Of a stretch of DNA of 64,000 bases, positions 12,560 to 28,018 are shown one piece after another. Source of the DNA: Pelosinus fermentans JBW45 (GTDB lineage Bacteria; Bacillota; Negativicutes; DSM-13327); assembly GCF_000271665.2 (NCBI RefSeq), contig NZ_CP010978.1:1086501-1150500 (forward strand), in the 5' to 3' direction. The stretch's first letter is position 1, and each line of letters starts with the position of its first letter. The position numbers and the translations under genes were made by a program. The notes beneath the pieces are model-generated. The model did not search any database and was not told the origin of the DNA. It saw only the letters and a program-made list of their open reading frames with translations.

Positions 12560-14017
<1,458 letters not shown>

Positions 14018-16821: not shown

Positions 16822-17130
16822 ATTAGCTTTCCTTTATGGTTCCTGGTGCTCACGAGATCATCAGCGAATTGGCAAAACTATATTCGTCGAGGAAATACTG
16901 CTGGGAGTGGGTACCGTACTTGATCCTGAGACCGCTAGAATCGCAATTTTAAGCGATGCTCAATATGTTGTTTCTCCTTGTTTGAACATTAATACGGTCA
17001 AACTGTGTAATCGCTATCGTATACCGATAATGCCAGGAGCGATGACGATTAAAGAAGTCGTAGAAGGAATGGAGGCTGGTGCCGATATTATTAGAAATAT
17101 TTCCAGGGGAATTATTTGGACCTATCAGTG
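16822..17130 (+). pseudogene. eda: decayed 2-dehydro-3-deoxyphosphogluconate (KDPG) aldolase fragment
   Basis: Pieces of an Eda-type aldolase appear in changing frames: ISF (16822), then FMVPGAHEIISELAKLYSS (16833-16889), then EEILLGVGTVLDPETARIAIL onward with IMPGAMTIKEVVEGMEAGAD, then IFPGELFGPIS up to about 17130. Frameshifts fall near 16831, 16888 and 17092. The N-terminal third is missing, and the end runs into a lone right arm of the dispersed repeat. The longest open piece (GTG 16907 to 17173) is not a real gene. Confidence 0.8.
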
Positions 17131-17151
17131 TTCTCTGTGTCTCTGCGGTTC
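17128..17151 (+). repeat. dispersed palindromic repeat, solitary right arm (copy 5)
   Basis: GTGTTCTCTGTGTCTCTGCGGTTC matches the right arm of the other copies, but no left arm is present upstream. It abuts the broken end of the aldolase fragment, so deletion at the repeat may have removed the rest. Confidence 0.7.
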
Positions 17152-17240
17152 GATTCTGTTTTATATGTTTTAAAGGATGCGAAGACATGCAAAGAACATG
17201 AGAGAGTACTATGTGCTTTGGTAAGTTCAGCAGGATGAAA

Positions 17241-17296
17241 TTCTCATAAATTCTTTATAGTATCTTCACAAGATCTTCACATTTTCTTTGTATACT
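17241..17296 (+). promoter_or_regulatory. metal-cluster promoter A: 11-bp direct repeats plus -10
   Basis: TCTTCACA at 17263-17270 and again at 17274-17281 (period 11) is followed by 9 bases and TATACT (17291-17296). Two weaker repeats in phase lie upstream (TTCTCATA 17241, TCTTTATA 17252). There is no -35 consensus; the second half-site lies beside that position, as for activation by OmpR-type regulators. It serves the membrane protein at 17331. Confidence 0.8.
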
Positions 17297-17330
17297 ATCA
17301 ATATAAGTTTATATGAGGAGAGTGTTGATT

Positions 17331-17840
17331 ATGGTTATGACACACTATATGGAATTGCTGGCTGTTAACCAGCCATGGAATTTAATTTTGTATATGGTTA
17401 TTCCTGTAGCCCTGGCAGAAGCGCTTGTTGCAACTGAATTTTTTACGGTTTTCCTTCGTGGGTCCAATGCTGGTGGATGGAAAACAGCCAATAAGGCAAT
17501 TGGTATTTTTCTGGGATTTTACTTCCTGGGAGTCTTTCTCAATTTAATAACCACTGTTATTCCTACGATTCAATGGCGCGGTATTGCTGATATACTGGCA
17601 GTAGGTTCTTATCTCAGTGGTGTAATTCCGCTGTTTAGTATTGCTTTATTGGAACTCGGAGTAATTGGCAAGGGTAAATCGGATGATGAAAAGATGAAAC
17701 TCCATTTCATTTTATTGACCGTATTTCTCGTTGTTGCTCACGTAGCTATGATTTTCGGGATGGTGGATCCGACGATTATGGGATGGGATCCTAATGCTGT
17801 TGGTGGGAATACGCCACCTATGCAACATAAGCATCCATAA
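17331..17840 (+). CDS. small multi-pass membrane protein of the metal cluster, function unknown
   Basis: I do not recognise the family with certainty. The 169-residue protein has about four TM segments, an early acidic helix (PVALAEALVATEFF) and a C-terminal tail rich in Met, His and Pro (MQHKHP). ATG 17331 follows GAGGAG by about 9 bases. It is transcribed from promoter A, which shares its architecture with four other promoters of this cluster, so it likely belongs to the same metal-stress regulon. A terminator follows directly. Confidence 0.7.
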   Translation: MVMTHYMELLAVNQPWNLILYMVIPVALAEALVATEFFTVFLRGSNAGGWKTANKAIGIFLGFYFLGVFLNLITTVIPTIQWRGIADILAVGSYLSGVIPLFSIALLELGVIGKGKSDDEKMKLHFILLTVFLVVAHVAMIFGMVDPTIMGWDPNAVGGNTPPMQHKHP

Positions 17841-17860
17841 AAATTTGGAATATGATAGCA

Positions 17861-17898
17861 AAGCAGCTTTTCCTGCAGGAAAGGCTGCTTGCTTTTTT
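17861..17898 (+). terminator. rho-independent terminator
   Basis: AAGCAGC...GCTGCTT with inner TTTCCTGCAGGAAA pairing, followed by a T run. It closes the single-gene unit at 17331-17840. Confidence 0.85.
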
Positions 17899-18112
17899 GT
17901 CTACTTGGTGGCCCTTTTCACTTTAGTGGCTGAAAGGACGGCTAGTTTTACTCAATTATATCTGCCATTAACTGCCGATATTGCAGAAAGAATAGAAACT
18001 GCGGTACAATAGCATCAATATGAGCAAATAATGTTTTTTACAATAAGCATGTTGTATCTTATAGGATGTGGTTGGTTTTATACTGGTTGTCATGGGTGCG
18101 GAGGTGTGATAA

Positions 18113-18808
18113 ATGAAAGTGTTAGTAGTGGATGATGATGAGAAAATTGTAAAAGTGCTGGTAACCTATCTGACAAAAGAGGGATATATGACGGAAACAG
18201 CTATGGATGGCAGGAGTGCAGTTGAAAAGGTACGGCAATGGGAGCCTGATGTGGTATTGCTGGATGTGATGCTGCCAGAACTAGATGGCTGGGGAGTATG
18301 CAAGGAAATTAGGCGGGATAGCGATGTGCCGATTATTATGCTCACGGCGCGGGATGCCGAGAATGATCGGGTCATTGGGCTGGAAATCGGGGCTGACGAC
18401 TATGTAGCAAAGCCTTTTAGTCCCCGGGAACTGATTGCCCGGATACGAGCGATCCTGCGGCGGGTTAAGCCTGAAGGGCGGCGAGACAAGGTTGGGAATG
18501 AATTGCGGGTTGGAGAGATAGCATTGCATCAGCATAACCACACATTAACAGTTCAAGGTAACCCTATCGAACTAACGCCTACCGAGCATAAACTACTAGA
18601 ACTATTTTTGACCCATCCAAACCAGGTCCTATCTCGGCTGCAGTTGATTGAAAAGGTACAAGGTTATGCTTATGAGGGCTATGAACGGACGGTTGATTCT
18701 CATATTAAAAACCTCCGCAAAAAGCTGGGCGATTCCTCTGGCGAGCCTCGTTATATCAAAACCGTTTATGGTGTTGGTTATAAATTGGCAGGTGATCCGC
18801 ATGGGTAG
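18113..18808 (+). CDS. OmpR/PhoB-family response regulator (CusR-like)
   Basis: This 231-residue regulator has a receiver domain (about 1-115) with phospho-acceptor Asp51 in LLDVML, acidic pocket VDDD and Lys in AKPFSP, then a winged-helix DNA-binding domain (about 130-228; ending TVYGVGYKL). GGAGGTG precedes ATG 18113. It overlaps the sensor kinase gene by 8 bases. The 11-bp direct repeats at five nearby promoters fit the tandem-dimer binding of this family, so it is the prime candidate to bind them. The ligand is inferred to be copper or silver. Confidence 0.92.
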   Translation: MKVLVVDDDEKIVKVLVTYLTKEGYMTETAMDGRSAVEKVRQWEPDVVLLDVMLPELDGWGVCKEIRRDSDVPIIMLTARDAENDRVIGLEIGADDYVAKPFSPRELIARIRAILRRVKPEGRRDKVGNELRVGEIALHQHNHTLTVQGNPIELTPTEHKLLELFLTHPNQVLSRLQLIEKVQGYAYEGYERTVDSHIKNLRKKLGDSSGEPRYIKTVYGVGYKLAGDPHG

Positions 18809-19931
18809 TCTTCTGATACGGGTAATGGTCACTTTCTTTGTAACAACGGCAACTGTTGTGGTGGGACTCATCTTAGTCGTCAACTATCAGGTATCCGAAA
18901 ATTTTAATTCCTATTTATATATGAGCGGTATGCATGGCATGATGATGAATCATGGCAATATGGCTTCTATGATGGGGTTACCAGAAAAACAGTTTATGAT
19001 ATCGTTAAAGCAGTCTTTATTATTGGCTGCAGGCGGGATGCTACTAATTGGTGCTGGCGTTAGCTATTATTTGGCCCGTAATATTGCGACTCCGGTGATT
19101 GATTTGAACCGAGCAGTGAATGCAGTGGCAGCAGGAAATTTGGATGCAGCCGTTACCGTTGGAAGACAAGACGAAGTGGGGCAATTGGCTATGGCGTTTA
19201 ACGCCATGACGGCCAAATTAAAATCAAATACTGTCTTGCGTCAACGCTTTCTGGCTGGGATAGCTCATGAGCTTAGAACACCGCTGACAATACTGAAGGC
19301 TAATCTGGAAGGAATCTCCGATGGTGTTATTACTCCGGACGTGGAGCAAATGAGTTCGCTGACTGAGGAAGTGGACCGACTGACAAAGTTGGTCGGAGAA
19401 CTCAGAGATCTTTCTTTATTAGAGGCAGGACAACTACAGCCGGAATTTGCTCTTTTAGACTTAACCCAACTGCTACGTCAGATTGTAGGGAAAATTAAGC
19501 TTCTAGCTAGTGAAAAATACATCAGCCTGCGCATAGAAACAGATGATAGGGTATCAGCTATTTGGGCGGATGGGGATATGGTTAACCAAATGGTGTATAA
19601 TCTTGTCTTAAATGCTATCAAATATACACCTGACGGTGGGCAGATTACCATAGCGGCAACCACAAAAAATGGCATGATTGAAATTGCGGTTACGGATACG
19701 GGAATTGGAATTGCAGTAGAAGATGTCGAACATGTTTTTGATTATTTTTACCGCGCCGACCCGGCTAGGACTAAAGCAAGCGGCGGTACTGGTTTAGGCC
19801 TAGCTCTTGTCAAGCAAATGGCTTTGGCCCATGGTGGACAGGTAAAGGTCAAAAGTAAAATAGACAAAGGTAGTACTTTCACCGTCCTGCTGCCGGCTGA
19901 TCTCCATCAAAAACGCACAGTTTCTCCATAA
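18801..19931 (+). CDS. sensor histidine kinase with Met-rich external loop (CusS-like)
   Basis: This 376-residue kinase has TM1 (about 5-28), a short external loop (29-67), TM2 (about 68-90), HAMP (91-143), HisKA with His156 in AHELRTP, and an ATPase domain with NLVLNAIKYT, DTGIGI and GGTGLGL. The loop has eight Met and two His within about 18 residues (41-58), pointing to soft-metal binding such as Cu(I) or Ag(I). The frame is open from 18648, but ATG 18801, overlapping the regulator's stop, gives the proper membrane start. Promoter B overlaps its 3' end. Confidence 0.92.
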   Translation: MGSLLIRVMVTFFVTTATVVVGLILVVNYQVSENFNSYLYMSGMHGMMMNHGNMASMMGLPEKQFMISLKQSLLLAAGGMLLIGAGVSYYLARNIATPVIDLNRAVNAVAAGNLDAAVTVGRQDEVGQLAMAFNAMTAKLKSNTVLRQRFLAGIAHELRTPLTILKANLEGISDGVITPDVEQMSSLTEEVDRLTKLVGELRDLSLLEAGQLQPEFALLDLTQLLRQIVGKIKLLASEKYISLRIETDDRVSAIWADGDMVNQMVYNLVLNAIKYTPDGGQITIAATTKNGMIEIAVTDTGIGIAVEDVEHVFDYFYRADPARTKASGGTGLGLALVKQMALAHGGQVKVKSKIDKGSTFTVLLPADLHQKRTVSP

Positions 19932-19956
19932 AAACTCCACAATGTTAGGTTATACT
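19923..19956 (+). promoter_or_regulatory. metal-cluster promoter B
   Basis: TCTCCATA (19923-19930) and ACTCCACA (19934-19941) are 11 bases apart; 9 bases later comes TATACT (19951-19956). It overlaps the kinase stop codon and drives the SHOCT gene. Confidence 0.8.
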
Positions 19957-19985
19957 ATGCTTAACACAAAGGAGGTGCATGAACT

Positions 19986-20228
19986 ATGATGATGGGGTAC
20001 GGTTTTAGCGGTCCCTTCGGTTGGCTGGGCATGGGCCTGGGGATACTCGTTCATTTAGCATTTACCGCTCTTGTTATTATGGCGGCGATTTGGCTATTTA
20101 AGACGTTGTTCCGTAGTGGCAGCCAAAATGAGCCACGGACTGACGCTTTGGAGATATTGAAACAGCGGTATGCCAAAGGAGAAATTACTACCGATGAGTA
20201 TCAGCACATAAAAAAAGAACTGGAATAA
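19986..20228 (+). CDS. small membrane protein with SHOCT domain
   Basis: This 80-residue protein begins with a Gly/Met-rich segment, has one TM helix (about 18-42), then a C-terminal SHOCT motif (about 52-80: LEILKQRYAKGEITTDEYQ). SHOCT is a short oligomerisation or interaction motif found on many small membrane proteins. AAAGGAGGTG lies upstream of ATG 19986. It is expressed from promoter B and so is probably induced with the metal-export genes. The molecular role is unknown. Confidence 0.8.
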   Translation: MMMGYGFSGPFGWLGMGLGILVHLAFTALVIMAAIWLFKTLFRSGSQNEPRTDALEILKQRYAKGEITTDEYQHIKKELE

Positions 20229-20252
20229 AAACCACACAAATTTTTCACAAAG

Positions 20253-20286
20253 GCTCCATAATTTCTCCACAATCATGGGATACAAT
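20253..20286 (+). promoter_or_regulatory. metal-cluster promoter C
   Basis: GCTCCATA (20253-20260) and TCTCCACA (20264-20271) are 11 bases apart; after 9 bases comes TACAAT (20281-20286). It drives the Met-rich exported protein at 20320. Confidence 0.8.
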
Positions 20287-20319
20287 GAAGACAAATAAGA
20301 AACAGGAGGGGGAATCCCT

Positions 20320-20628
20320 ATGAAAAAGAAAATTCTAATATTTACGATGTTAGCAGCTTTGATGGCTGTGCCGGTGTTTGCCGCAACGACTGACAAGACT
20401 CAGACACAAAATGATTGGTTCAATCAGATGTCTCAGAATCATCGGCAAATGATGCAACAAGCCGTGGATAATGGTACTATTACTACTGAGGAAGCGACTC
20501 AGATGAATGAGCATATGCAGCAAATGGCTCCTGTCATGCAAAAAATGATGCAAAATGGCGGTATGATGAACGGCATGATGCAAAACGGTGGTACGATGGG
20601 ATTTTGCAATAACAATAACACCAAGTAA
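20320..20628 (+). CDS. small exported Met-rich protein (metal-cluster paralogue 1)
   Basis: The 102-residue product starts with a clear signal peptide (MKKKILIF, hydrophobic core, cleavage after VFAA). The mature part has a helical segment (QMMQQAVDNGTITTEEATQM) and a C-terminal half very rich in Met, Asn and Gly, with a late Cys. It is a close relative of the product at 27740, sharing the signal peptide and the QQAV-GTI motif. A periplasmic Cu/Ag-binding or chaperone role is inferred from composition and from promoter C. GGAGGGGG precedes the ATG. Confidence 0.8.
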   Translation: MKKKILIFTMLAALMAVPVFAATTDKTQTQNDWFNQMSQNHRQMMQQAVDNGTITTEEATQMNEHMQQMAPVMQKMMQNGGMMNGMMQNGGTMGFCNNNNTK

Positions 20629-20633
20629 TGTGG

Positions 20634-20661
20634 AAAAGACCAGGAGAAATCCTGGTCTTTT
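20634..20661 (+). terminator. rho-independent terminator
   Basis: AAAAGACCAGGA and TCCTGGTCTTTT form a perfect 12-bp stem with a GAAA loop, six bases after the preceding stop. Confidence 0.92.
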
Positions 20662-20718
20662 AGTTTGACGACAGCTTTTTCACTAGCTGGCCGAAAGATG
20701 CCGTTTTTAGCATAAGTA

Positions 20719-20836
20719 GAGATTAAAAGAAGCGCCCAAAGCATTTGCTGCCGAACCAACAAATCAAGAGCAGCCAGCACCGCAGGATGATGCTCCGAAA
20801 GACAACAGTAATGAACATTCAGGTCACCATATGTAA
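20719..20836 (+). pseudogene. possible remnant: C-terminal tail of an exported protein
   Basis: Without a start codon, a frame reads KAFAAEPTNQEQPAPQDD and ends NEHSGHHM-stop at 20834-20836, followed directly by a strong terminator. The Pro/Gln linker with a His/Met end resembles tails of metal-related periplasmic proteins in this cluster. A TAG closes the frame just upstream, so I read it as what remains of a deleted gene. This is tentative. Confidence 0.35.
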
Positions 20837-20841
20837 TAGCA

Positions 20842-20873
20842 AAGCAGCCCTTTTATTAAAAGGGCTGCTTTTA
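20842..20873 (+). terminator. rho-independent terminator
   Basis: AGCAGCCCTTTTATTAAAAGGGCTGCT is a near-perfect hairpin followed by TTTT. No intact gene precedes it; it probably belonged to the remnant ending at 20836. Confidence 0.85.
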
Positions 20874-20928
20874 TATCAACAAATAAGAAAAGAGTACTGA
20901 TTCGTTATGAAATACAAATAATATGAGT

Positions 20929-20973
20929 TCTTCAAACTTTCTTCATAAAATCTTCACATTAGTTGGATATGAT
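20929..20973 (+). promoter_or_regulatory. metal-cluster promoter D, for the efflux operon
   Basis: TCTTCATA (20940-20947) and TCTTCACA (20951-20958) are 11 bases apart; 9 bases later comes TATGAT (20968-20973). A third repeat in phase, TCTTCAAA, is at 20929. This is the only evident promoter for the downstream CusCBA-like genes. Confidence 0.82.
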
Positions 20974-21010
20974 AGACATCAATATAAAGATGCAATCGAG
21001 GTGAAATACA

Positions 21011-21106
21011 ATGTGGGACTTACTTATGATCGAATTGGCAGTGATGGGGTCTTTATGGTGCTATCTTACAAATCGAGCTGAGGGGCTAGTTGCTAAAGAA
21101 GAATAA
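21011..21106 (+). CDS. 31-residue membrane peptide leading the efflux operon
   Basis: ATG 21011 follows GAGGTG by about 7 bases and opens a 31-residue frame (MWDLLMIELAVMGSL...AKEE). It has a hydrophobic N-terminal helix (about 3-20) and a charged tail. It is the first gene after promoter D, 68 bases ahead of the outer-membrane factor. Good translation signals and position support it. Its role, perhaps an accessory peptide of the pump or a leader, is unknown. Confidence 0.55.
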   Translation: MWDLLMIELAVMGSLWCYLTNRAEGLVAKEE

Positions 21107-21173
21107 GGATAAACCAAAATATCTAAGGTCAGTTTGTTATGATTGTCTTCAATAAGGGGACGAAGGGGGATAT

Positions 21174-22472
21174 ATGAACGTAGGAAAATGGTTTCGATGC
21201 AAAGTATTATCATTGACTGCTGTGCTCGTATTGGGAATTATAATACCAGTTATGGCGGAACAAGCCCAAGAGACTCTGTCTTTAAAAGAGATAGTGGATA
21301 CTGCCGTCAAGAATAATCCAGCGGTCATTGAGAGTCAAAAGCGCTGGGAAGAAAAAGAGGCTCGCATTCCCCTGGCAAAAGCCTGGGCGAATCCTCAGTT
21401 TGGGATTATGAAAGATGATATACCCAAGAGTACCTTAAATCCTTTTGATGCAATGATGACGGAATACACTTTTACCCAGGACATTATGAATCCGTCTAAA
21501 TTGAAAGCCATGGGTAAAATGGCTGGCAGTGATGCTGCAATGACTAAAGCGAATTACCAAGATAAGCAGATGGAAGCCTATGCTGCGGCGAAAACTGCCT
21601 ATTATGATCTACTCTATGCTGATAAAGCTCTAGAAATCGGCAAGGAAAATCAGCAACTCATGGGCCAGCTGGTGCAGATTGCTCAGGTTAACTATTCTAC
21701 TGGAATGGTACCTCTGCAAGATACCTTGCGAGCTCAGACTGAATTTTCTAAAATGACTACTGATCTTTTGAGCATGGCATCCATGGCGGCAGTAGCAAAA
21801 GCGAAAGTCAATACTGTTATCGGCCGTAAAGCCGATACCGCCTTCACAGTGAAAGAAGAGTTCAGTGCCCCACCTCCTGACTTTGACTTGACCAGTTTGC
21901 AGACAGAAGCCCAAGCTGGAAAACCAGCTGTTGTTGGCATGGAACAGCAAGTGGAAATGGCAAAGAATGGTGTGGAATTGGCAAAAAAACAGCAGTTACC
22001 AGATTATCAATTCAGCATTGGCTATAAAGATAGAAAACAAACGATGATGGATACGACACCTGATACCTGGAAAATGGAAGTTATGGTCATGCTGCCTATT
22101 TGGCAGGGAAAAAATAAAGCAGAAATTAAATCTGCTGCAGCTAGTTTGGAGGCAGCTCAGGCTTCATTGGCTACTATGCAGAGTATGACGGAGCTGGATT
22201 TGCAGATGGCACTGACCGAAGCGCAGTCTGCCTGGCGCCAAATTGACCTGTATAAGAATACCGTGATTCCCCAAGCGGAGCAAACCTATCAAGCCGGAGT
22301 TGTGAGCTATACAAATGGCAAAGTGGATTTCATGGCTGTCCTGGATAGTCTAAATGCTCTCCGTAATGTGCGATTGGATTACTATAAAGCCCGCGTGAAT
22401 TATGAGAAAGCAGTGGCGGATCTGGAAAAAGCGGTAGGAAAACCTTTATTTACGAGTGGAACCCAGCCATAA
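21174..22472 (+). CDS. outer-membrane efflux protein (TolC/CusC family)
   Basis: This 432-residue protein has a signal peptide (cleavage after PVMA) and the two repeated coiled-coil domains of outer-membrane factors (LSLKEIVDTAVKNNPAV; later AWRQIDLYKNTVIPQAE). It forms the outer duct of a tripartite pump, which implies an outer membrane. GGGGG precedes ATG 21174. Adaptor and RND genes follow with short spacing, so the three form one operon from promoter D. Confidence 0.9.
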   Translation: MNVGKWFRCKVLSLTAVLVLGIIIPVMAEQAQETLSLKEIVDTAVKNNPAVIESQKRWEEKEARIPLAKAWANPQFGIMKDDIPKSTLNPFDAMMTEYTFTQDIMNPSKLKAMGKMAGSDAAMTKANYQDKQMEAYAAAKTAYYDLLYADKALEIGKENQQLMGQLVQIAQVNYSTGMVPLQDTLRAQTEFSKMTTDLLSMASMAAVAKAKVNTVIGRKADTAFTVKEEFSAPPPDFDLTSLQTEAQAGKPAVVGMEQQVEMAKNGVELAKKQQLPDYQFSIGYKDRKQTMMDTTPDTWKMEVMVMLPIWQGKNKAEIKSAAASLEAAQASLATMQSMTELDLQMALTEAQSAWRQIDLYKNTVIPQAEQTYQAGVVSYTNGKVDFMAVLDSLNALRNVRLDYYKARVNYEKAVADLEKAVGKPLFTSGTQP

Positions 22473-22497
22473 TGTGCAAGCAAAAGGAGAGGATAGC

Positions 22498-23772
22498 ATG
22501 ATTGAAAAACTACAGGCTAAGAAAAAGATGATCATAGGTGTGACAGCGGGTATTCTAGTATTTGGCGGTGGCGGTTACTATTATGCTGCGCAGCACGCAA
22601 AGCCGACTGTGGATCATACCGGTCATCAAACAACGACTCCGGTTATGGCTATGGGTGACACTGTTACTCTGGATGCCAAAGCTAGGCAATTGTCCGGAGT
22701 GCAAACGGCGCTAGCAGTCGTAAAAGATATTATGAAGGAAATTAAGACCACGGGTAAACTTGCTATGAATGAAAGTGGACGTACGTACCTTACCTCCCGG
22801 GTGGAAGGGCGGGTTGATGAACTATATGTGACTGCTGATGGTGAATATATTGCCCCGGGGCAGGCCATCGCCGCTGTATACAGCCCTACCTATATTGCGA
22901 CCCAGGAAGAATATTTATTAACACTGGAAAATGTTCAGAAGCTGCAAAACGCTGGCAAAGATGTAGTTCAGATCAATAATCGCCTGCGGGAGGCGGCAAA
23001 GCGCAAATTGCAGCTGTTAAATGTACCAGACAGTGAGATTGCTCATCTGGAACATACCCGAACACCCAAGGATCATATGATCATCTATGCCCAGTTTGGC
23101 GGTACGGTTTTGGAGAAACAAGTGCTGCCAGGAGCATTCATTATGCCAGGGGATAAACTGTACAGTCTATCGGATTTATCTACTCTTTGGCTGTATATTG
23201 ATATTTATGAAAAGGATATAGCAGGCATTAAACTAGGTCAAAGAGTTGGGGTGAACAGCGGTGCCTATCCGGGAGAAACTTTTAGCGGACAAGTAACCTT
23301 TATTAACCCGGTGCTGGATGATGCCACCCGAACAGTGAAAGTTCGGGTGGAAATGGATAATCCTGGGGGCCTACTGAAGCCAAATATGTTTGTTAATGCC
23401 AATGTTCAACTGCCTTTAGGGGACAGTGTGGTGATACCGGAATCCAGCATCTTAGATTCTGGTAGCCGTAAAATTGTCTTTGTCGCTCAAAGTGAAGATA
23501 CATTTATCAAACGGGATGTAGTCACGGGGCAATACGCCGATGGCTATGTTCAGATCTTTTCTGGGCTGCAGGCAGGTGAAACAGTAGTGACAGCCGCCAC
23601 CTTCCTCATTGATTCCCAAACCAAATTAGGCAGCTTTGGCTCTCATGCCGGTCACGGTGGCGGGGCCGCTAAAGAGACGAGTGCACCAGCACCCGTGAAC
23701 GGTACAAATAGCGGCCCAGCTGCTCCGGCACCTGTTGCCGGGAGCGAACACAGCGGCCATGGCGGTCAGTAA
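22498..23772 (+). CDS. cusB: periplasmic adaptor subunit of RND metal pump (CusB-like)
   Basis: This 424-residue membrane-fusion protein has an N-terminal TM anchor (about 11-28), barrel and lipoyl halves (TSRVEGRVDELYV; GGTVLEKQVLPGAFI), a coiled-coil hairpin (about 135-180) and a C-terminal His/Gly-rich tail (GHAGHGGG, EHSGHGGQ). His residues near the N-terminus (DHTGHQ) may also bind metal. ATG 22498, after AAAGGAGAGG, is preferred to GTG 22456, which overlaps the previous gene. It links the inner RND protein to the outer-membrane factor. Confidence 0.9.
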   Translation: MIEKLQAKKKMIIGVTAGILVFGGGGYYYAAQHAKPTVDHTGHQTTTPVMAMGDTVTLDAKARQLSGVQTALAVVKDIMKEIKTTGKLAMNESGRTYLTSRVEGRVDELYVTADGEYIAPGQAIAAVYSPTYIATQEEYLLTLENVQKLQNAGKDVVQINNRLREAAKRKLQLLNVPDSEIAHLEHTRTPKDHMIIYAQFGGTVLEKQVLPGAFIMPGDKLYSLSDLSTLWLYIDIYEKDIAGIKLGQRVGVNSGAYPGETFSGQVTFINPVLDDATRTVKVRVEMDNPGGLLKPNMFVNANVQLPLGDSVVIPESSILDSGSRKIVFVAQSEDTFIKRDVVTGQYADGYVQIFSGLQAGETVVTAATFLIDSQTKLGSFGSHAGHGGGAAKETSAPAPVNGTNSGPAAPAPVAGSEHSGHGGQ

Positions 23773-23783
23773 GGAGGAGCAAC

Positions 23784-26700
23784 ATGCTGAATCAATTAAT
23801 CGAATTTTCCTTGAAAAACCGCGTGATTATCCTAGTGTTATCTGCATTGGTTATTATCTGGGGAATCTTCGTCGTACGGGAGACCCCTATCGATGCTTTT
23901 CCTGATCTTAGTGAAAACCAGGTGCTTGTCTCGGCGGACTGGATGGGGCGTGGGCCTCAGGAAATCCAGGATCAGGTCACGTATCCATTGGAGACTGCCT
24001 TGCGGGGGCTGCCTAAGGTGAAAGAAGTACGCTCAGCTTCCTCATTCGGGATGTCACTCATAACTGTCATCTTTGAAGACGGTGTAGAGCCTTACTTTGC
24101 CCGCCAAGTGGTAAATGAAAAAGTGCAGCAAGCCATTCCTCAATTGCCACGGGGTGTGCAGCCTGCCTTGGGACCAGTCAGCACGCCGATGGGGCAGGTA
24201 TTTATGTATACAATAGAAAGCGATCGTCATAATCTGGCTGATCTGCGTACGATTGAGGATTTTACCATCAAGCAGCAGCTCAGTGCGGTGCCTGGAGTTG
24301 CAGAAGTCGCCAGCATTGGCGGCTATGTGATGCAGTACCAGATCAACCTGGATCCTCATCTTCTGCAAAACTATCGGATTACCTTCAATCAGGTATTTGG
24401 TGCCCTTGGTGCCAACAACGCTAATATTGGTGCGAAAGTTGTCGAGCAAAACGGTCAAGAATTTATTATCCGAGGATTAGGATTAATCCAGTCTCCTGAT
24501 GATATTAAAAATATTGTGATCTCTCAAAATAACAATGTACCTATTTACATCAAGGATGTAGCCAACGTAACTGCTGGGCCGGATTTTCGCCGGGGCGTGC
24601 TAACCAAATCTGGTTATGAAGCGGCTGGGGGTATCGTCATTCAGCGTATGGGCGAAAACACCCTCGACGTGATTGACCAGGTGAAAGCCAAGATTGCTGA
24701 AATCCAGCCAACCTTACCGGAAGGCATGCGGATTGTGCCTTTTTATGACCAGACGGATCTGGTAAAAAAAGCAGTCAATACGCTGACCCGGGCATTAATT
24801 GAAGAATTTATTTTAGTCTCAATCATTGTCATTCTCTTTTTAGGGAATGTTCGGTCTAGCCTGATTGTAACAAGTGCCATTCCAATAGGTATTTTAATTG
24901 CACTGATTGCCATGAAGCAGATTCATCTGTCGGCTAACCTAATGTCACTTGGCGGCATTGCCATTGGTATTGGAGTCATGACCGACGCGGCTATTGTTAT
25001 GGTGGAAAATATTTATCGCCATTTGGCAGAGGACGGCGGTCGACGCAGCATTGTGGATGTGACCCTGGAAGCGGCAAAGGAAGTAGCCGCACCTATTTTC
25101 TTTTCGATTACGATTATCATTGTTACCTTCCTGCCCGTATTTACGATGACTGGGACGGAGGGCAAGATGTATACCCCGATGGCCTGGGCGAAATCCTTTG
25201 CCATGAGCGGGTCACTGCTGCTAGCTTTCACCTTGGTACCTGTGTTGTGCACCTTGCTGCTCAAAGGAAAAATTCAGGAAAGGGATACCTGGGTTGTTGC
25301 TAAACTACATCGGTGGTATGTACCGACTTTGAAATCAGTATTAAAACACAGTAAAATCACGATTAGTATCGCAGTCGTCGTAATGATTGCCGGATTTTCT
25401 TTGCTGCCTCTCATTGGCACTACCTTTATGCCGGAATTGGATGAAGGAACGTTCCTAGTCATGCCGACCATGCTGCCTAGCGTGTCTTTAACTGAGGCTC
25501 TGGAAGCAGCTAAAACCATGGATAAAGTCATTATGGATATTCCGGAAATCGACATGTCCGTAGGGAAGGTAGGTCGTGCTGAGTCTGCTATGGACCCGGC
25601 ACCGATTAGTATGATTGAAACGATTGTCACGTTAAAACCGAAAGAACAATGGCGGGACGGCATGACAAAACAAAAAATTGAACAAGAAATGATGGTTAAG
25701 CTTGCCAATATGCCTGGGCTTAACTTAGCCTTTACCCAGCCGATTGCCGGACGGTTATCCATGCTGACAACGGGAGTTCGTACGGAACTAGGTATTAAAC
25801 TTTATGGAGAAGACCTGCAGGTGCTTCAGCAAAAGGCCTTTGAGATAGAAAAGGCACTTGCGACCGTGCCAGGAGTTAGCGATCTCTTGGCTGAACGGGT
25901 CTTTGGCGCATCCTATCTAGAGATTCAGGTCAACCGGGAAAAAGCAGCTCGGTATGGTCTTAACATTGCCGATGTAGAAGATGCCGTTGAATTAGCGGTA
26001 GGCGGTAAAAATGCCACCACTACCATTGAAGGACGCAAACGCTTTAATGTCTTAGTGCGTTACAATCGGGAAAACCGAGAAACCATTGACGCTATGGAAA
26101 ACATCCTCATTCCGGTAACAGGTGGCGGCGCCGCGGCGAAAAGTAGCGGTGGCGGAATGGGCGCAGGTATGGGTGGCGGCGCAACTGCTGCAGCGGCACC
26201 GGCTAGTAGCGGTGCTTATGTACAGCTGGGTGAAGTAGCTCAGTTCCAGGTTGTGGACGGTCCATCGATGATCAGCAGTGAAAACGGGGTCTATCGAATG
26301 ATTGTTCAGATGAACACCCGGGGACGGGATGTCGTAAGTTTTGTGAATGAGGCCAACCAAGTCATTAAGGAAAAAGTCGACTTGCCTGCCGGTTATTCCT
26401 TAAAGTGGACTGGTCAGTATGAAAATCAGCAGCGGGCGAAAGATCGACTCTCTTTAGTAGTACCAGCGGTCATCGTGCTCACATTCTTCTTGCTCTATAT
26501 GACCTTTAAGTCCGCCAGCGATGCTTTCCTCATTTTGATGAACATTCCCTTCTCTTTAGTGGGTGGTATTGTAGCTATGTATGTTACTGGCACCTACATG
26601 ACGGTAGCTGCAGCTGTCGGTTTTATCGCTCTCTTTGGAATCGCTGTGCAAAATGGGGTCATCATGGTTACCTATATTAAGCATCTGCGGGATCACCGAA

Positions 26701-26972
26701 CCTTGGAAGAAGCTATCACCGAGGGTGCATTTACCCGCTTGCGTCCGGTTATGATTACCGCATTAGTTGCGAGTTTAGGGTTATTTCCATTACTCTTTGC
26801 CACAGGGACTGGTGCCGAGGTACAGCGACCAATGGCTACAGTTGTTGTGGGAGGATTGGTTACTTCCACCATTTTGACATTGATCGTACTGCCTTGCATC
26901 TATCTGGTGTGGAACCAGTGGCAAGAGCGCAGGAATCCAGCTATATCTAGCAAATCCCATACTACTGAGTAA
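23784..26972 (+). CDS. cusA: heavy-metal RND efflux transporter (CusA-like)
   Basis: This 1062-residue inner-membrane pump has 12 TM helices and two large periplasmic loops. The HME-RND features are DAFPDLSENQV near the N-terminus and the proton-relay TDAAIVMVEN in TM4. Met in PISMIETIV and RLSMLTTGV align, from memory, with CusA Met573 and Met623 of the Cu(I)/Ag(I) site. Residues about 779-812 form a Gly/Ala/Ser-rich insertion absent from E. coli CusA as I recall it. The ATG is 12 bases after cusB with a GGAGG site. Copper or silver is the likely substrate. Confidence 0.92.
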   Translation: MLNQLIEFSLKNRVIILVLSALVIIWGIFVVRETPIDAFPDLSENQVLVSADWMGRGPQEIQDQVTYPLETALRGLPKVKEVRSASSFGMSLITVIFEDGVEPYFARQVVNEKVQQAIPQLPRGVQPALGPVSTPMGQVFMYTIESDRHNLADLRTIEDFTIKQQLSAVPGVAEVASIGGYVMQYQINLDPHLLQNYRITFNQVFGALGANNANIGAKVVEQNGQEFIIRGLGLIQSPDDIKNIVISQNNNVPIYIKDVANVTAGPDFRRGVLTKSGYEAAGGIVIQRMGENTLDVIDQVKAKIAEIQPTLPEGMRIVPFYDQTDLVKKAVNTLTRALIEEFILVSIIVILFLGNVRSSLIVTSAIPIGILIALIAMKQIHLSANLMSLGGIAIGIGVMTDAAIVMVENIYRHLAEDGGRRSIVDVTLEAAKEVAAPIFFSITIIIVTFLPVFTMTGTEGKMYTPMAWAKSFAMSGSLLLAFTLVPVLCTLLLKGKIQERDTWVVAKLHRWYVPTLKSVLKHSKITISIAVVVMIAGFSLLPLIGTTFMPELDEGTFLVMPTMLPSVSLTEALEAAKTMDKVIMDIPEIDMSVGKVGRAESAMDPAPISMIETIVTLKPKEQWRDGMTKQKIEQEMMVKLANMPGLNLAFTQPIAGRLSMLTTGVRTELGIKLYGEDLQVLQQKAFEIEKALATVPGVSDLLAERVFGASYLEIQVNREKAARYGLNIADVEDAVELAVGGKNATTTIEGRKRFNVLVRYNRENRETIDAMENILIPVTGGGAAAKSSGGGMGAGMGGGATAAAAPASSGAYVQLGEVAQFQVVDGPSMISSENGVYRMIVQMNTRGRDVVSFVNEANQVIKEKVDLPAGYSLKWTGQYENQQRAKDRLSLVVPAVIVLTFFLLYMTFKSASDAFLILMNIPFSLVGGIVAMYVTGTYMTVAAAVGFIALFGIAVQNGVIMVTYIKHLRDHRTLEEAITEGAFTRLRPVMITALVASLGLFPLLFATGTGAEVQRPMATVVVGGLVTSTILTLIVLPCIYLVWNQWQERRNPAISSKSHTTE

Positions 26973-27067
26973 AGGCCATTAATGGCAAGAAGCTGTGGTG
27001 GTAAAATGATCTCACTACAGCAAAAATTAGAATATAAAGCAATGACAATCATTGGAGGTTTTAGATT

Positions 27068-27529
27068 ATGAAAAAAAGTAAAGTACTCTTTAGCATGCTA
27101 GCCATTATTGCAGTTGTTTTTTTAGTGGCGGGGTGTGGATCGAGTGAAAAAACAACTGTTCAGCCGACAACTGCCAGTCAAGAGCAAGCAATTGGACATG
27201 AAGGGCACAGCGCAGCGATGCCAAAGGAAGACCCTGTGCCGATGATGAAGGATTTGGATAAATCCTTACAAGATGTGGTCAAACAAGCCAAAGCTGGACA
27301 GACGATGGATGCGCAAAAGAGTGCAGCACAACTCGTGAGTACTGTGGAAAAAATTGTACCCCATATGATGGAAGCCAATTTAAAAGACAGTTTGCGCAAA
27401 GCGGCAGGTGACATTAAAAATACTGTTAACTCCGGAAAAATGGACCCGAGTGCTATGGAAAGTAAAGTGAAGACGATGCAAGATGTTATGAAGACAACTA
27501 TGTCCCACTTGCAAACCATGCAACACTAA
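27068..27529 (+). CDS. exported lipoprotein with His/Met-rich segment
   Basis: The 153-residue precursor has a lipoprotein signal ending LVAGC (lipidated Cys about 22), a Thr/Gln linker with HEGHSAAM, and a helical domain (about 55-150) ending SHLQTMQH. I do not recognise a named family. Position 95 bases after cusA, with GGAGG before the ATG, suggests it belongs to the efflux operon and may pass metal to the pump or buffer it. This is inferred from context and composition. Confidence 0.78.
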   Translation: MKKSKVLFSMLAIIAVVFLVAGCGSSEKTTVQPTTASQEQAIGHEGHSAAMPKEDPVPMMKDLDKSLQDVVKQAKAGQTMDAQKSAAQLVSTVEKIVPHMMEANLKDSLRKAAGDIKNTVNSGKMDPSAMESKVKTMQDVMKTTMSHLQTMQH

Positions 27530-27595
27530 AAAAGGTTGGCTGGAGAGGAGAACGAGTGCTATAAGAATTTGTGTTATTTCTAAAAAAACATAGGA

Positions 27596-27629
27596 TCTTC
27601 ATAAGAAATCCACAATCTTTGTTTATAAT
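27596..27629 (+). promoter_or_regulatory. metal-cluster promoter E
   Basis: TCTTCATA (27596-27603) and AATCCACA (27607-27614) are 11 bases apart; after 9 bases comes a perfect TATAAT (27624-27629). It drives the exported protein at 27740 through a 5' leader of about 105 bases. Confidence 0.82.
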
Positions 27630-27739: not shown

Positions 27740-28018
27740 ATGAAAAAGAAAATGTTAATCATAACAGCATTAGCAGCATTGATTGCGGTGCCAGTTTTCG
27801 CAGCCACCACTGATCAGGCTGAGGAGCAGTGTGGGCCGGTAAATGGCAACCATCAGCAGATGATACAGCAAGCTGTGAAAGATGGTACTATTTCTAGCAA
27901 TGAGGCTGCTGCCTTAAATGAAAGCATGGAAAAGGTGGCTCCTATTATGGAGAAAATCAGGAAAAATCATGGGATGACCCAGAACACCACCAATGACACA
28001 GTGGAAAGCTGTAAATAG
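27740..28018 (+). CDS. small exported protein (metal-cluster paralogue 2)
   Basis: The 92-residue precursor has a signal peptide ending VFAATT and a helical mature part (MIQQAVKDGTISSNEAAAL, MEKVAPIMEKIRK) with two Cys, one near each end of the mature chain. It is paralogous to the 102-residue product at 20320 but lacks its Met-rich tail. ATG 27740 follows AGGAGGG by 6 bases; the upstream TTG overlaps that site. It is transcribed from promoter E and closed by a strong terminator. A periplasmic metal-stress role is inferred. Confidence 0.78.
   Translation: MKKKMLIITALAALIAVPVFAATTDQAEEQCGPVNGNHQQMIQQAVKDGTISSNEAAALNESMEKVAPIMEKIRKNHGMTQNTTNDTVESCK

Follow-up and report, generated by a model that had tools for sequence, protein, structure and literature searches.

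Among described systems, the pho box of PhoB is comparable in layout to the promoters considered here: a pair of 8-bp direct repeats, separated by a 3-bp linker, stands about 10 bp before a TAN3T/A −10 (PMC1906773, accessible sections). For BaeR, the accessible text of PMC3799227 gives the half-site TCTNCANAA, and BaeSR targets named in PMC7657598 include an RND pump as well as proteins of the periplasm. The cre/blr tag of CreBC/BlrAB is TTCACN6TTCAC in the excerpted text of PMC4689548, and HssR and related Gram-positive regulators are described with a direct repeat at the target promoter (excerpts of PMC3968170 and PMC6305404).

We analysed a 64,000-nucleotide stretch of the Pelosinus fermentans JBW45 genome (the window). 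The original prediction assigned one shared architecture to five promoters of this window, and a renewed direct reading confirmed it at every site: two NNTYCAYA half-sites lie 11 bp apart, exactly 9 bp separate the second from the −10, and a −35 is absent, the best match to TTGACA at 16–18 bp reaching only 2 or 3 of 6 positions (Table 1). An extended −10 (TG) is absent from all five sites of the window; TG occupies that place in 22 of 42 distinct strings with the 9-bp gap in the class. Additional in-phase half-sites had been proposed at two sites. One is clear, at site 3 (TTTTCACA at 20242), and weaker ones occur at sites 1 (17252, 17241) and 4 (20929). The end of the first half-site of site 2 is overlapped by the kinase stop codon (19929–19931).

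The original prediction counted the CusCBA-like pump among the units of the regulon. Downstream of site 4, the 31-codon ORF comes first and the pump genes follow. Pfam searches returned no match for this ORF and no family for the lipoprotein-like protein that follows the pump. In an alignment, the pump carries methionine at the places of E. coli CusA residues 573, 623 and 672, which we take to be the metal-binding methionines; all three are kept. Terminator-like hairpins, one of which separates the DUF6803 and regulator genes, number 15 in the region versus 10.1 expected by shuffling.

Table 1. Promoter sites and genes of the cluster, in window coordinates
Feature	Position (strand)	Layout or assignment	Matrix score
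Site 1, promoter of DUF6803 gene	17263..17296 (+)	TCTTCACA-AGA-TCTTCACA-9 bp-TATACT; half-sites 17263, 17274; −10 17291	38.7
DUF6803 membrane protein	17313..17840 (+)	Pfam PF20617, E 8e-69; alternative start 17331 with better ribosome site	
Terminator-like hairpin	17861..17890 (+)	Between DUF6803 and regulator genes	
Response regulator	18113..18808 (+)	Receiver and winged helix; BaeR-type helix RTVDSHIKNLRKK; putative binder of sites 1–5	
Sensor histidine kinase	18801..19931 (+)	Short Met/His-rich loop MSGMHGMMMNHGNMASMMG	
Site 2, promoter of SHOCT gene	19923..19956 (+)	TCTCCATA-AAA-ACTCCACA-9 bp-TATACT; half-sites 19923, 19934; −10 19951	31.1
SHOCT-domain membrane protein	19986..20228 (+)	Pfam PF09851	
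Site 3 with extra half-site, promoter of exported protein 1	20242..20286 (+)	GCTCCATA-ATT-TCTCCACA-9 bp-TACAAT; half-sites 20253, 20264; −10 20281	25.0
Exported Met-rich protein 1	20320..20628 (+)	Weak DUF2680 likeness, below Pfam cut-off	
Site 4, promoter of 31-codon ORF and, by position, of pump genes	20940..20973 (+)	TCTTCATA-AAA-TCTTCACA-9 bp-TATGAT; half-sites 20940, 20951; −10 20968	36.9
31-codon ORF	21011..21106 (+)	MWDLLMIELAVMGSLWCYLTNRAEGLVAKEE; kept at the same place in two genomes of the genus	
Outer-membrane factor, CusC-like	21174..22472 (+)	Pfam OEP	
Membrane fusion protein, CusB-like	22498..23772 (+)	Start chosen by eye	
CusA/CzcA-family RND pump	23784..26972 (+)	TIGR00914, 1147.8 bits (cut-off 701.45)	
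Lipoprotein-like protein	27068..27529 (+)		
Site 5, promoter of exported protein 2	27596..27629 (+)	TCTTCATA-AGA-AATCCACA-9 bp-TATAAT; half-sites 27596, 27607; −10 27624	34.6
Exported Met/Cys-containing protein 2	27740..28018 (+)		

The repeat and linker layout is that of PhoB, with 9 bp to the −10 here, which points to a new regulon built on a familiar plan; the promoter logic itself would be textbook PhoB-type. The features of a pho-box-type promoter are present at all five sites, which have an 11-bp period, 9 bp to the −10 and a −35 match of at most 3 of 6; the 9-bp gap also prevails in the class (below). In the E. coli phoB stretch, the best match to the class matrix lies 81–48 bp before phoB and has a 9-bp gap. 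The repeat differs, TCTYCAYA here versus CTGTCAT in the pho box, and the regulator scores 233.6 bits against the PhoB model (cut-off 296.2).

The recognition helix and half-site resemble those of BaeSR, which acts at spy and mdtABC in E. coli and Salmonella. E. coli BaeR has almost the same helix (RTIDSHIKNLRRK). The first half-site fits TCTNCANAA at site 1 and, with the following A, at sites 2, 4 and 5, while that of site 3 starts with G. BaeR is also the closest solved structure (4b09), and the regulator is 42% identical to E. coli BaeR. It scores 230.7 bits against the BaeR NCBIfam equivalog model (cut-off 380), however, and a quick tree, midpoint-rooted and with poor deep support, places the two on separate branches. 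Moreover, the consensus published for BaeR comprises one box.

Like CusRS, CopRS and SilRS, the two-component pair here adjoins a CusCBA-type pump, but CusR, CopR and SilR have the helix NAIDVAVKRLRGK and the E. coli cusC promoter carries the inverted AAAATGACAATTTTGTCATTTT, not direct repeats. The heavy-metal regulator model TIGR01387 gave 167.3 bits (cut-off 279.2). By model scores, the regulator is neither CusR nor BaeR proper. The HssR direct repeat is reportedly GTTCATATT. The CreBC/BlrAB tag fits site 1 and none of the other four, the CreB model gave 235.8 bits (cut-off 273), and the CreB helix ends in HIKTLRAK, unlike that of the regulator here. We considered and rejected both CusR-type regulation and CreB membership. 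The entries listed by a search of the open-licence literature describe neither this regulon nor a tandem rule for BaeR.

A strict pattern, fitted to the five sites themselves, has six exact matches in the 5.38-Mb genome: the five sites and one upstream of a paralogous two-component operon (genome 3963147–3963114). With up to two mismatches, 11 matches were found versus 7 in the reversed control, which leaves the exact class as the sole clean one. When the −10 was dropped from the pattern, half-site pairs numbered 32 versus 21 in the control, so a pair by itself is weak evidence within one genome. A scoring matrix built from 41 sites of other genera only ranked the five sites 1–5 in the window, with scores of 25.0–38.7. 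The next scores were 6.6–10.9 for overlaps with the same repeats and otherwise 6.4, and the maximum over 60 Markov windows was 15.2.

The spacing is conserved in other genomes. When it was left free (4–14 bp) across 150 genomes of the class, the gap was exactly 9 in 48 of 63 matches; the reversed control gave 1. At 19 group A/B regulator loci, 14 loci held 37 matches with a gap of 9, other gaps being counted 0–4 times, and a period of 11 occurred 48 times versus 0–2 for periods of 6–10 and 12–17. By comparison, 20 other OmpR-type loci yielded three gap-9 matches, all in one locus. The full element was absent at 5 of the 19 group A/B loci, including the close relatives L044 (90%) and L050 (71%), which lie on short contigs of 7.4 and 14.9 kb.

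Presence of the motif follows the regulator. Where a strong regulator relative is present, 16 of 31 genomes contain the motif; where none is, the figure is 0 of 29, at a 1e-76 cut-off chosen after data inspection and with kinship ignored. A further check, only partly independent in that nine of its genomes were picked for motif presence, found a regulator relative in 9/9 gap-9 genomes versus 4/15 motif-negative ones; one off-spacing genome (G066) also has a relative. A phylum scan with a C-type variant found matches in six genomes among 299, versus 1 for the control; the gaps were 13, 10, 6, 4, 4 and 9, and the scan therefore lends no support to a phylum-wide code outside regulator-bearing lineages. 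One of its gap-4 rows is site 2 of the window itself, which also fits a gap of 9, and its gap-9 genome contains another element at a distance of 1.3 kb.

The recognition helix correlates with the element at greater distance. A named-genome scan, which may omit records close to the genome of the window, served as the distant set; 80 of its 588 relatives, 39–53% identical, were kept. With the helix expression R[TSA][VI]D[SAT]H[IV]KNLR[KRA]K, chosen after data inspection, the element occurred at 12 of 32 loci with the helix versus 1 of 48 without (kinship ignored); it was missing at the other 20 of the 32. Other families and phyla also showed the same spacing, there ahead of unrelated genes. This apparent reach of a helix, site and spacing code is the less expected part of the finding.

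We therefore read the five sites as probable activator-binding promoters of one regulon, controlled by the 18113 pair, at which a regulator dimer replaces the −35 (probability roughly 0.8). The pair (18113–19931) would sense a periplasmic signal through the Met/His-rich loop of the kinase, which is similar in all eight group A loci read. Together with the CusA methionines, this loop points to Cu/Ag, and the likeliest signal may be Cu(I)/Ag(I) itself or the resulting envelope stress. Judging by the period of 11 bp and a helix of the BaeR type, the phosphorylated regulator would bind both half-sites on one DNA face as a head-to-tail dimer. Following the PhoB precedent, this dimer would stand in for the −35 and hold sigma-70 region 4, and polymerase would then use the −10 exactly 9 bp on. 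The units switched on would be DUF6803, SHOCT, the two small exported proteins and the CusCBA-like pump. Tandem binding by an OmpR-family regulator adjoining polymerase, as originally proposed, appears well supported by these comparisons. Such a regulon would bring an uncharacterised two-component pair together with DUF6803, SHOCT, small exported Met-rich proteins and small ORFs in one testable unit.

The original prediction also named the 18113 regulator as the obvious candidate binder and called the regulon local. This regulator is the leading candidate, though not the sole one. A paralogous regulator (genome 3962133–3962801) has the nearly identical helix RTIDAHIKNLRRK, and the sixth site, which extends the code to a second two-component operon, precedes its operon; cross-binding is thus possible, and the regulon is not confined to this locus. 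Binding of the five sites by the paralogue or by both regulators, with the 18113 pair as one of two inputs, would also agree with group B loci elsewhere that carry the same element. We nevertheless consider it rather unlikely, given that the 18113 pair sits amid the five sites and that group A loci elsewhere have sites around their own pair.

Instead of an activator site, the repeats could be an upstream element used by an alternative sigma factor, as the fixed −10 spacing and missing −35 might suggest. We rejected this as highly improbable: the −10s fit TANNNT, extra in-phase copies of the repeats occur, motif presence tracks an OmpR-type regulator and its helix, and the half-site is identical to that of BaeR in the accessible text of PMC3799227. 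Promoters alike only through recent duplication are more improbable still and were likewise rejected, for although the two exported proteins start alike, and some duplication thus occurred, the 9-bp spacers of the five sites are unalike, so that simple copying of one promoter does not account for them, and in other families and phyla the spacing also holds ahead of genes that are unrelated.

Activation by an OmpR-type regulator, our preferred reading, may extend beyond this locus. The genes downstream of the element recur: small exported Met-rich, LTXXQ/Metal_resist, PepSY and DUF2680 proteins, and also unannotated 31- and 46-codon membrane-type ORFs. We give even odds to a broader reading, in which the helix and the grammar TCTYCAYA-N3-TCTYCAYA-N9-TANNNT were kept together across phyla and in more than one OmpR/PhoB branch, the one box published for BaeR would represent half of a tandem site whose spacing is fixed, and the whole would descend from an ancestral periplasmic metal and envelope-stress regulon. 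If so, one could read from sequence which genes many unstudied two-component systems target directly. The rule of helix, site and spacing could serve to predict which genes this type of regulator targets directly in other genomes, and we suggest re-reading the E. coli BaeR box as a tandem site.

As a separate observation on E. coli, a candidate tandem reading gives GGCGCAAA as the downstream half-site of spy, with TACACT boxes in spy and mdtA.

The five predicted promoters between 17241 and 27629 share one element, in which a pair of 8-bp half-sites (NNTYCAYA), 3 bp apart, is followed, after exactly 9 bp, by a TANNNT −10. This bears out in full the original prediction of a common architecture of paired half-sites, a 9-bp gap and a −10 with no −35: TTGACA-like hexamers 16–18 bp from the −10 matched at best 3 of 6 positions at all five sites. 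The 9-bp spacers are mutually unlike. Extra in-phase half-sites are clear at site 3 and weaker at sites 1 and 4, and at site 2 the first half-site runs at its end into the kinase stop codon. Accepting start codons only with a ribosome-site-like word, the distance from −10 to start codon is 29–37 bases at all sites but one, where it is 110.

Coordinates of the sites and associated features (window positions unless a genome or locus is named)
Feature	Position	Remark
Site 1, first half-site	17263	
Site 2, first half-site	19923	
Site 3, first half-site	20253	
Site 4, first half-site	20940	
Site 5, first half-site	27596	
Regulator gene	18113-18808	plus strand
Kinase gene	18801-19931	
Sixth site	genome 3963114-3963147	minus strand
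Paralogous regulator	genome 3962133-3962801	
31-codon ORF	21011-21106	directly after site 4
31-codon ORF	L055:6331-6426	kept with site
31-codon ORF	L097:1572-1667	kept with site
46–48-codon ORF	L042:7929-8069	
46–48-codon ORF	L045:8386-8526	
46–48-codon ORF	L048:13307-13447	
46–48-codon ORF	L098	
46–48-codon ORF	L099	
46–48-codon ORF	L104	
46–48-codon ORF	L109	
Two full elements	L231: 215, 1501	within 1.3 kb
KDPG-aldolase-type ORF	16907-17173	just upstream of site 1
IS3-type ORFs (two)	12601-13938	minus strand

A strict pattern, fitted to the five window sites, matched six times in the 5,380,816-base genome: at these five and at a sixth site. With up to two mismatches it matched 11 times versus 7 in a reversed control, which leaves exact matches as the only discriminating class; the half-site pair by itself, with no −10 required, is not rare (32 versus 21). 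In a less fitted test, allowing gaps of 4 to 14 bp, we found 63 matches in 29 of 150 genomes of the class versus 1 in the reversed control, some places being counted twice where another −10-like word is close by. The gap was 9 bp in 48 of the 63, one of them a window site. A matrix from 41 sites of other genera placed the five window sites at ranks 1 to 5 (25.0 to 38.7); the next window score was 6.4, with hits overlapping the same repeats set aside, and the top score of 60 Markov windows 15.2. As the training sites were chosen with a fixed-spacing expression, this checks letters more than spacing.

The protein at 18113 consists of a receiver and a winged helix, and within the class its relatives form two groups, A (about 70–100% identity) and B (about 51–60%). 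Across 19 group A and B loci (345 kb, window left out), the half-site pair had a period of 11 in 48 cases, and the remaining periods between 6 and 17 were each seen 0–2 times; a gap of 9 accounted for 37 matches, spread over 14 loci, and the remaining gaps between 3 and 16 for 0–4 apiece. In 384 kb around 20 of the class's other OmpR-type regulators, gap 9 occurred three times, all in one locus (L139) whose regulator has a similar helix, RTVDSHIKRLRQK. Wherever the regulator gene was recovered in group A and B loci, all sites were oriented as that gene; of the 14 matches in the distant set (the 80 named loci below), 8 were so oriented, 7 of these lying no more than 800 bp upstream of the regulator, and 6 opposite.

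Motif and regulator also co-occur by genome. Of 60 genomes, 31 have a strong relative (E below 1e-76), and the spacing-free motif was found in 16 of these versus 0 of the other 29. In a later 30, a relative was present in 9 of 9 gap-9 genomes and 4 of 15 motif-negative ones, and a looser expression found a site near the relative in three of those four; of four genomes with off-spacing matches only, three lacked the relative and one (G066) had it. Two phylum-scan genomes, G431 and G258, gave best relatives at E 2.5e-62 and 3.1e-75. G431, which is not a member of the class, has two full elements in its locus L231; the regulator's best relative there shows 47% identity and the helix RTIDSHIKNIRHK. 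Two genomes of another family (G011, G031) keep the order kinase end, site, SHOCT, site, exported protein, further sites, pump, and most of the cluster is kept in G001, of the same genus. In the latter (L055) the regulator gene is split into two frames, through error or decay, while sites, kinase and pump remain.

Aligned DNA-binding domains give recognition helices RTVDSHIKNLRKK for the 18113 regulator versus RTIDSHIKNLRRK for E. coli BaeR; that of CusR is NAIDVAVKRLRGK. Judged from sequence, recognition by the 18113 regulator is BaeR-like, not CusR-like. Helix type and element go together (counts ignore kinship throughout): in the class set the element occurred in 13 of 18 helix-type loci and in the one non-helix-type locus, and in 1 of 20 control loci, none helix-type. 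Among 80 named loci with regulators 39–53% identical, searched within the available flanks for the full element, it occurred in 12 of 32 helix-type loci versus 1 of 48 others, assigned by record title to Chloroflexi, delta-type proteobacteria, Bipolaricaulota and one Alteromonadaceae; gap 9 gave 13 helix-type matches, against 0–2 for any other gap between 0 and 20. With the helix expression unchanged, 27 further loci, including genomes chosen for having the motif, gave 8 of 13 versus 1 of 14, the exception (L237) being one residue off the expression. A quick tree placed the window protein in a clade of 34 (30 helix-type, 21 with motif); E. coli BaeR fell outside it, adjoining other helix-type proteins, with deep branches poorly resolved.

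This promoter logic is already known; the less expected part is the reach of the helix-site-spacing code. The BaeR consensus quoted in PMC3799227, TCTNCANAA, is the half-site of the window element, and the cre/blr tag TTCACN6TTCAC (PMC4689548) equals site 1. In PhoB boxes an 8-bp repeat occurs twice, separated by a 3-bp linker, and the −10 lies 10 bp further downstream (PMC1906773); two 11-nucleotide units are given in PMC4415409, and models support strict spacing (PMC10294691). Run on individual E. coli stretches, the class matrix placed the two top scores of the spy stretch upstream of spy, ranks 2 and 3 of the mdtA-baeR stretch at mdtA (rank 1, 2.4, lying inside baeS), and the top scores of the phoB and creD stretches 81–48 bp before phoB and 58 bp before creD; none of the four best scores of the cus stretch lay at the cusC promoter. 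With promoter scores as low as −1.6 to 11.3, this agreement is no more than suggestive. By eye, spy reads TCTCCATA-ATT-GGCGCAAA-9-TACACT and mdtA CCTCCATT-TTT-CTCCCTTA-9-TACACT, TACACT being the putative −10.

The interpretation originally offered mostly stands, with changes in BaeR-like recognition, regulon reach and the paralogue. The regulon of predicted sites is wider than the purely local one proposed: the sixth site precedes a 46-codon ORF and group B two-component genes, and the paralogue may share the sites with the 18113 regulator.

In the window, site 1 lies ahead of the gene for a DUF6803 protein, site 2 ahead of that for a SHOCT protein, sites 3 and 5 each ahead of an exported-protein gene, and site 4 ahead of a 31-codon ORF, after which comes the CusCBA-like pump. 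Model search assigns the pump to the heavy-metal RND family, and Met is conserved at the positions matching E. coli CusA 573, 623 and 672. The kinase loop reads MSGMHGMMMNHGNMASMMG in the window, and all eight group A loci examined have a similar one; from this we infer Cu(I) or Ag(I) as the probable signal. Of 20 hand-chosen downstream proteins of other genomes, 10 passed a Pfam family cut-off (Metal_resist/LTXXQ (two), PepSY, DUF2680, DUF2933, VTT, NlpC/P60, NusG_II, LemA and RseC/MucC) and 10 had no family above it; a further search added two proteins to DUF2680 and one to DUF2933. Taken as a whole, these proteins lean towards metal and envelope stress, resembling the BaeR targets spy and mdtABC (PMC7657598).

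Pairs of the 31-codon ORF, from the window and two other genomes of the genus, differ at 6 to 9 codons, partly silently; a Pfam search gave no family. Membrane-type ORFs of 46–48 codons (core YTPxQxxILxxLxWGAW) directly follow the element in several genera, and in the P. fermentans genome one precedes the paralogous two-component genes; two members searched in Pfam gave no family. By eye, the ORF upstream of site 1 resembles a piece of a KDPG-aldolase-type gene, perhaps a remnant, and two further ORFs resemble an IS3-type transposase in pieces.
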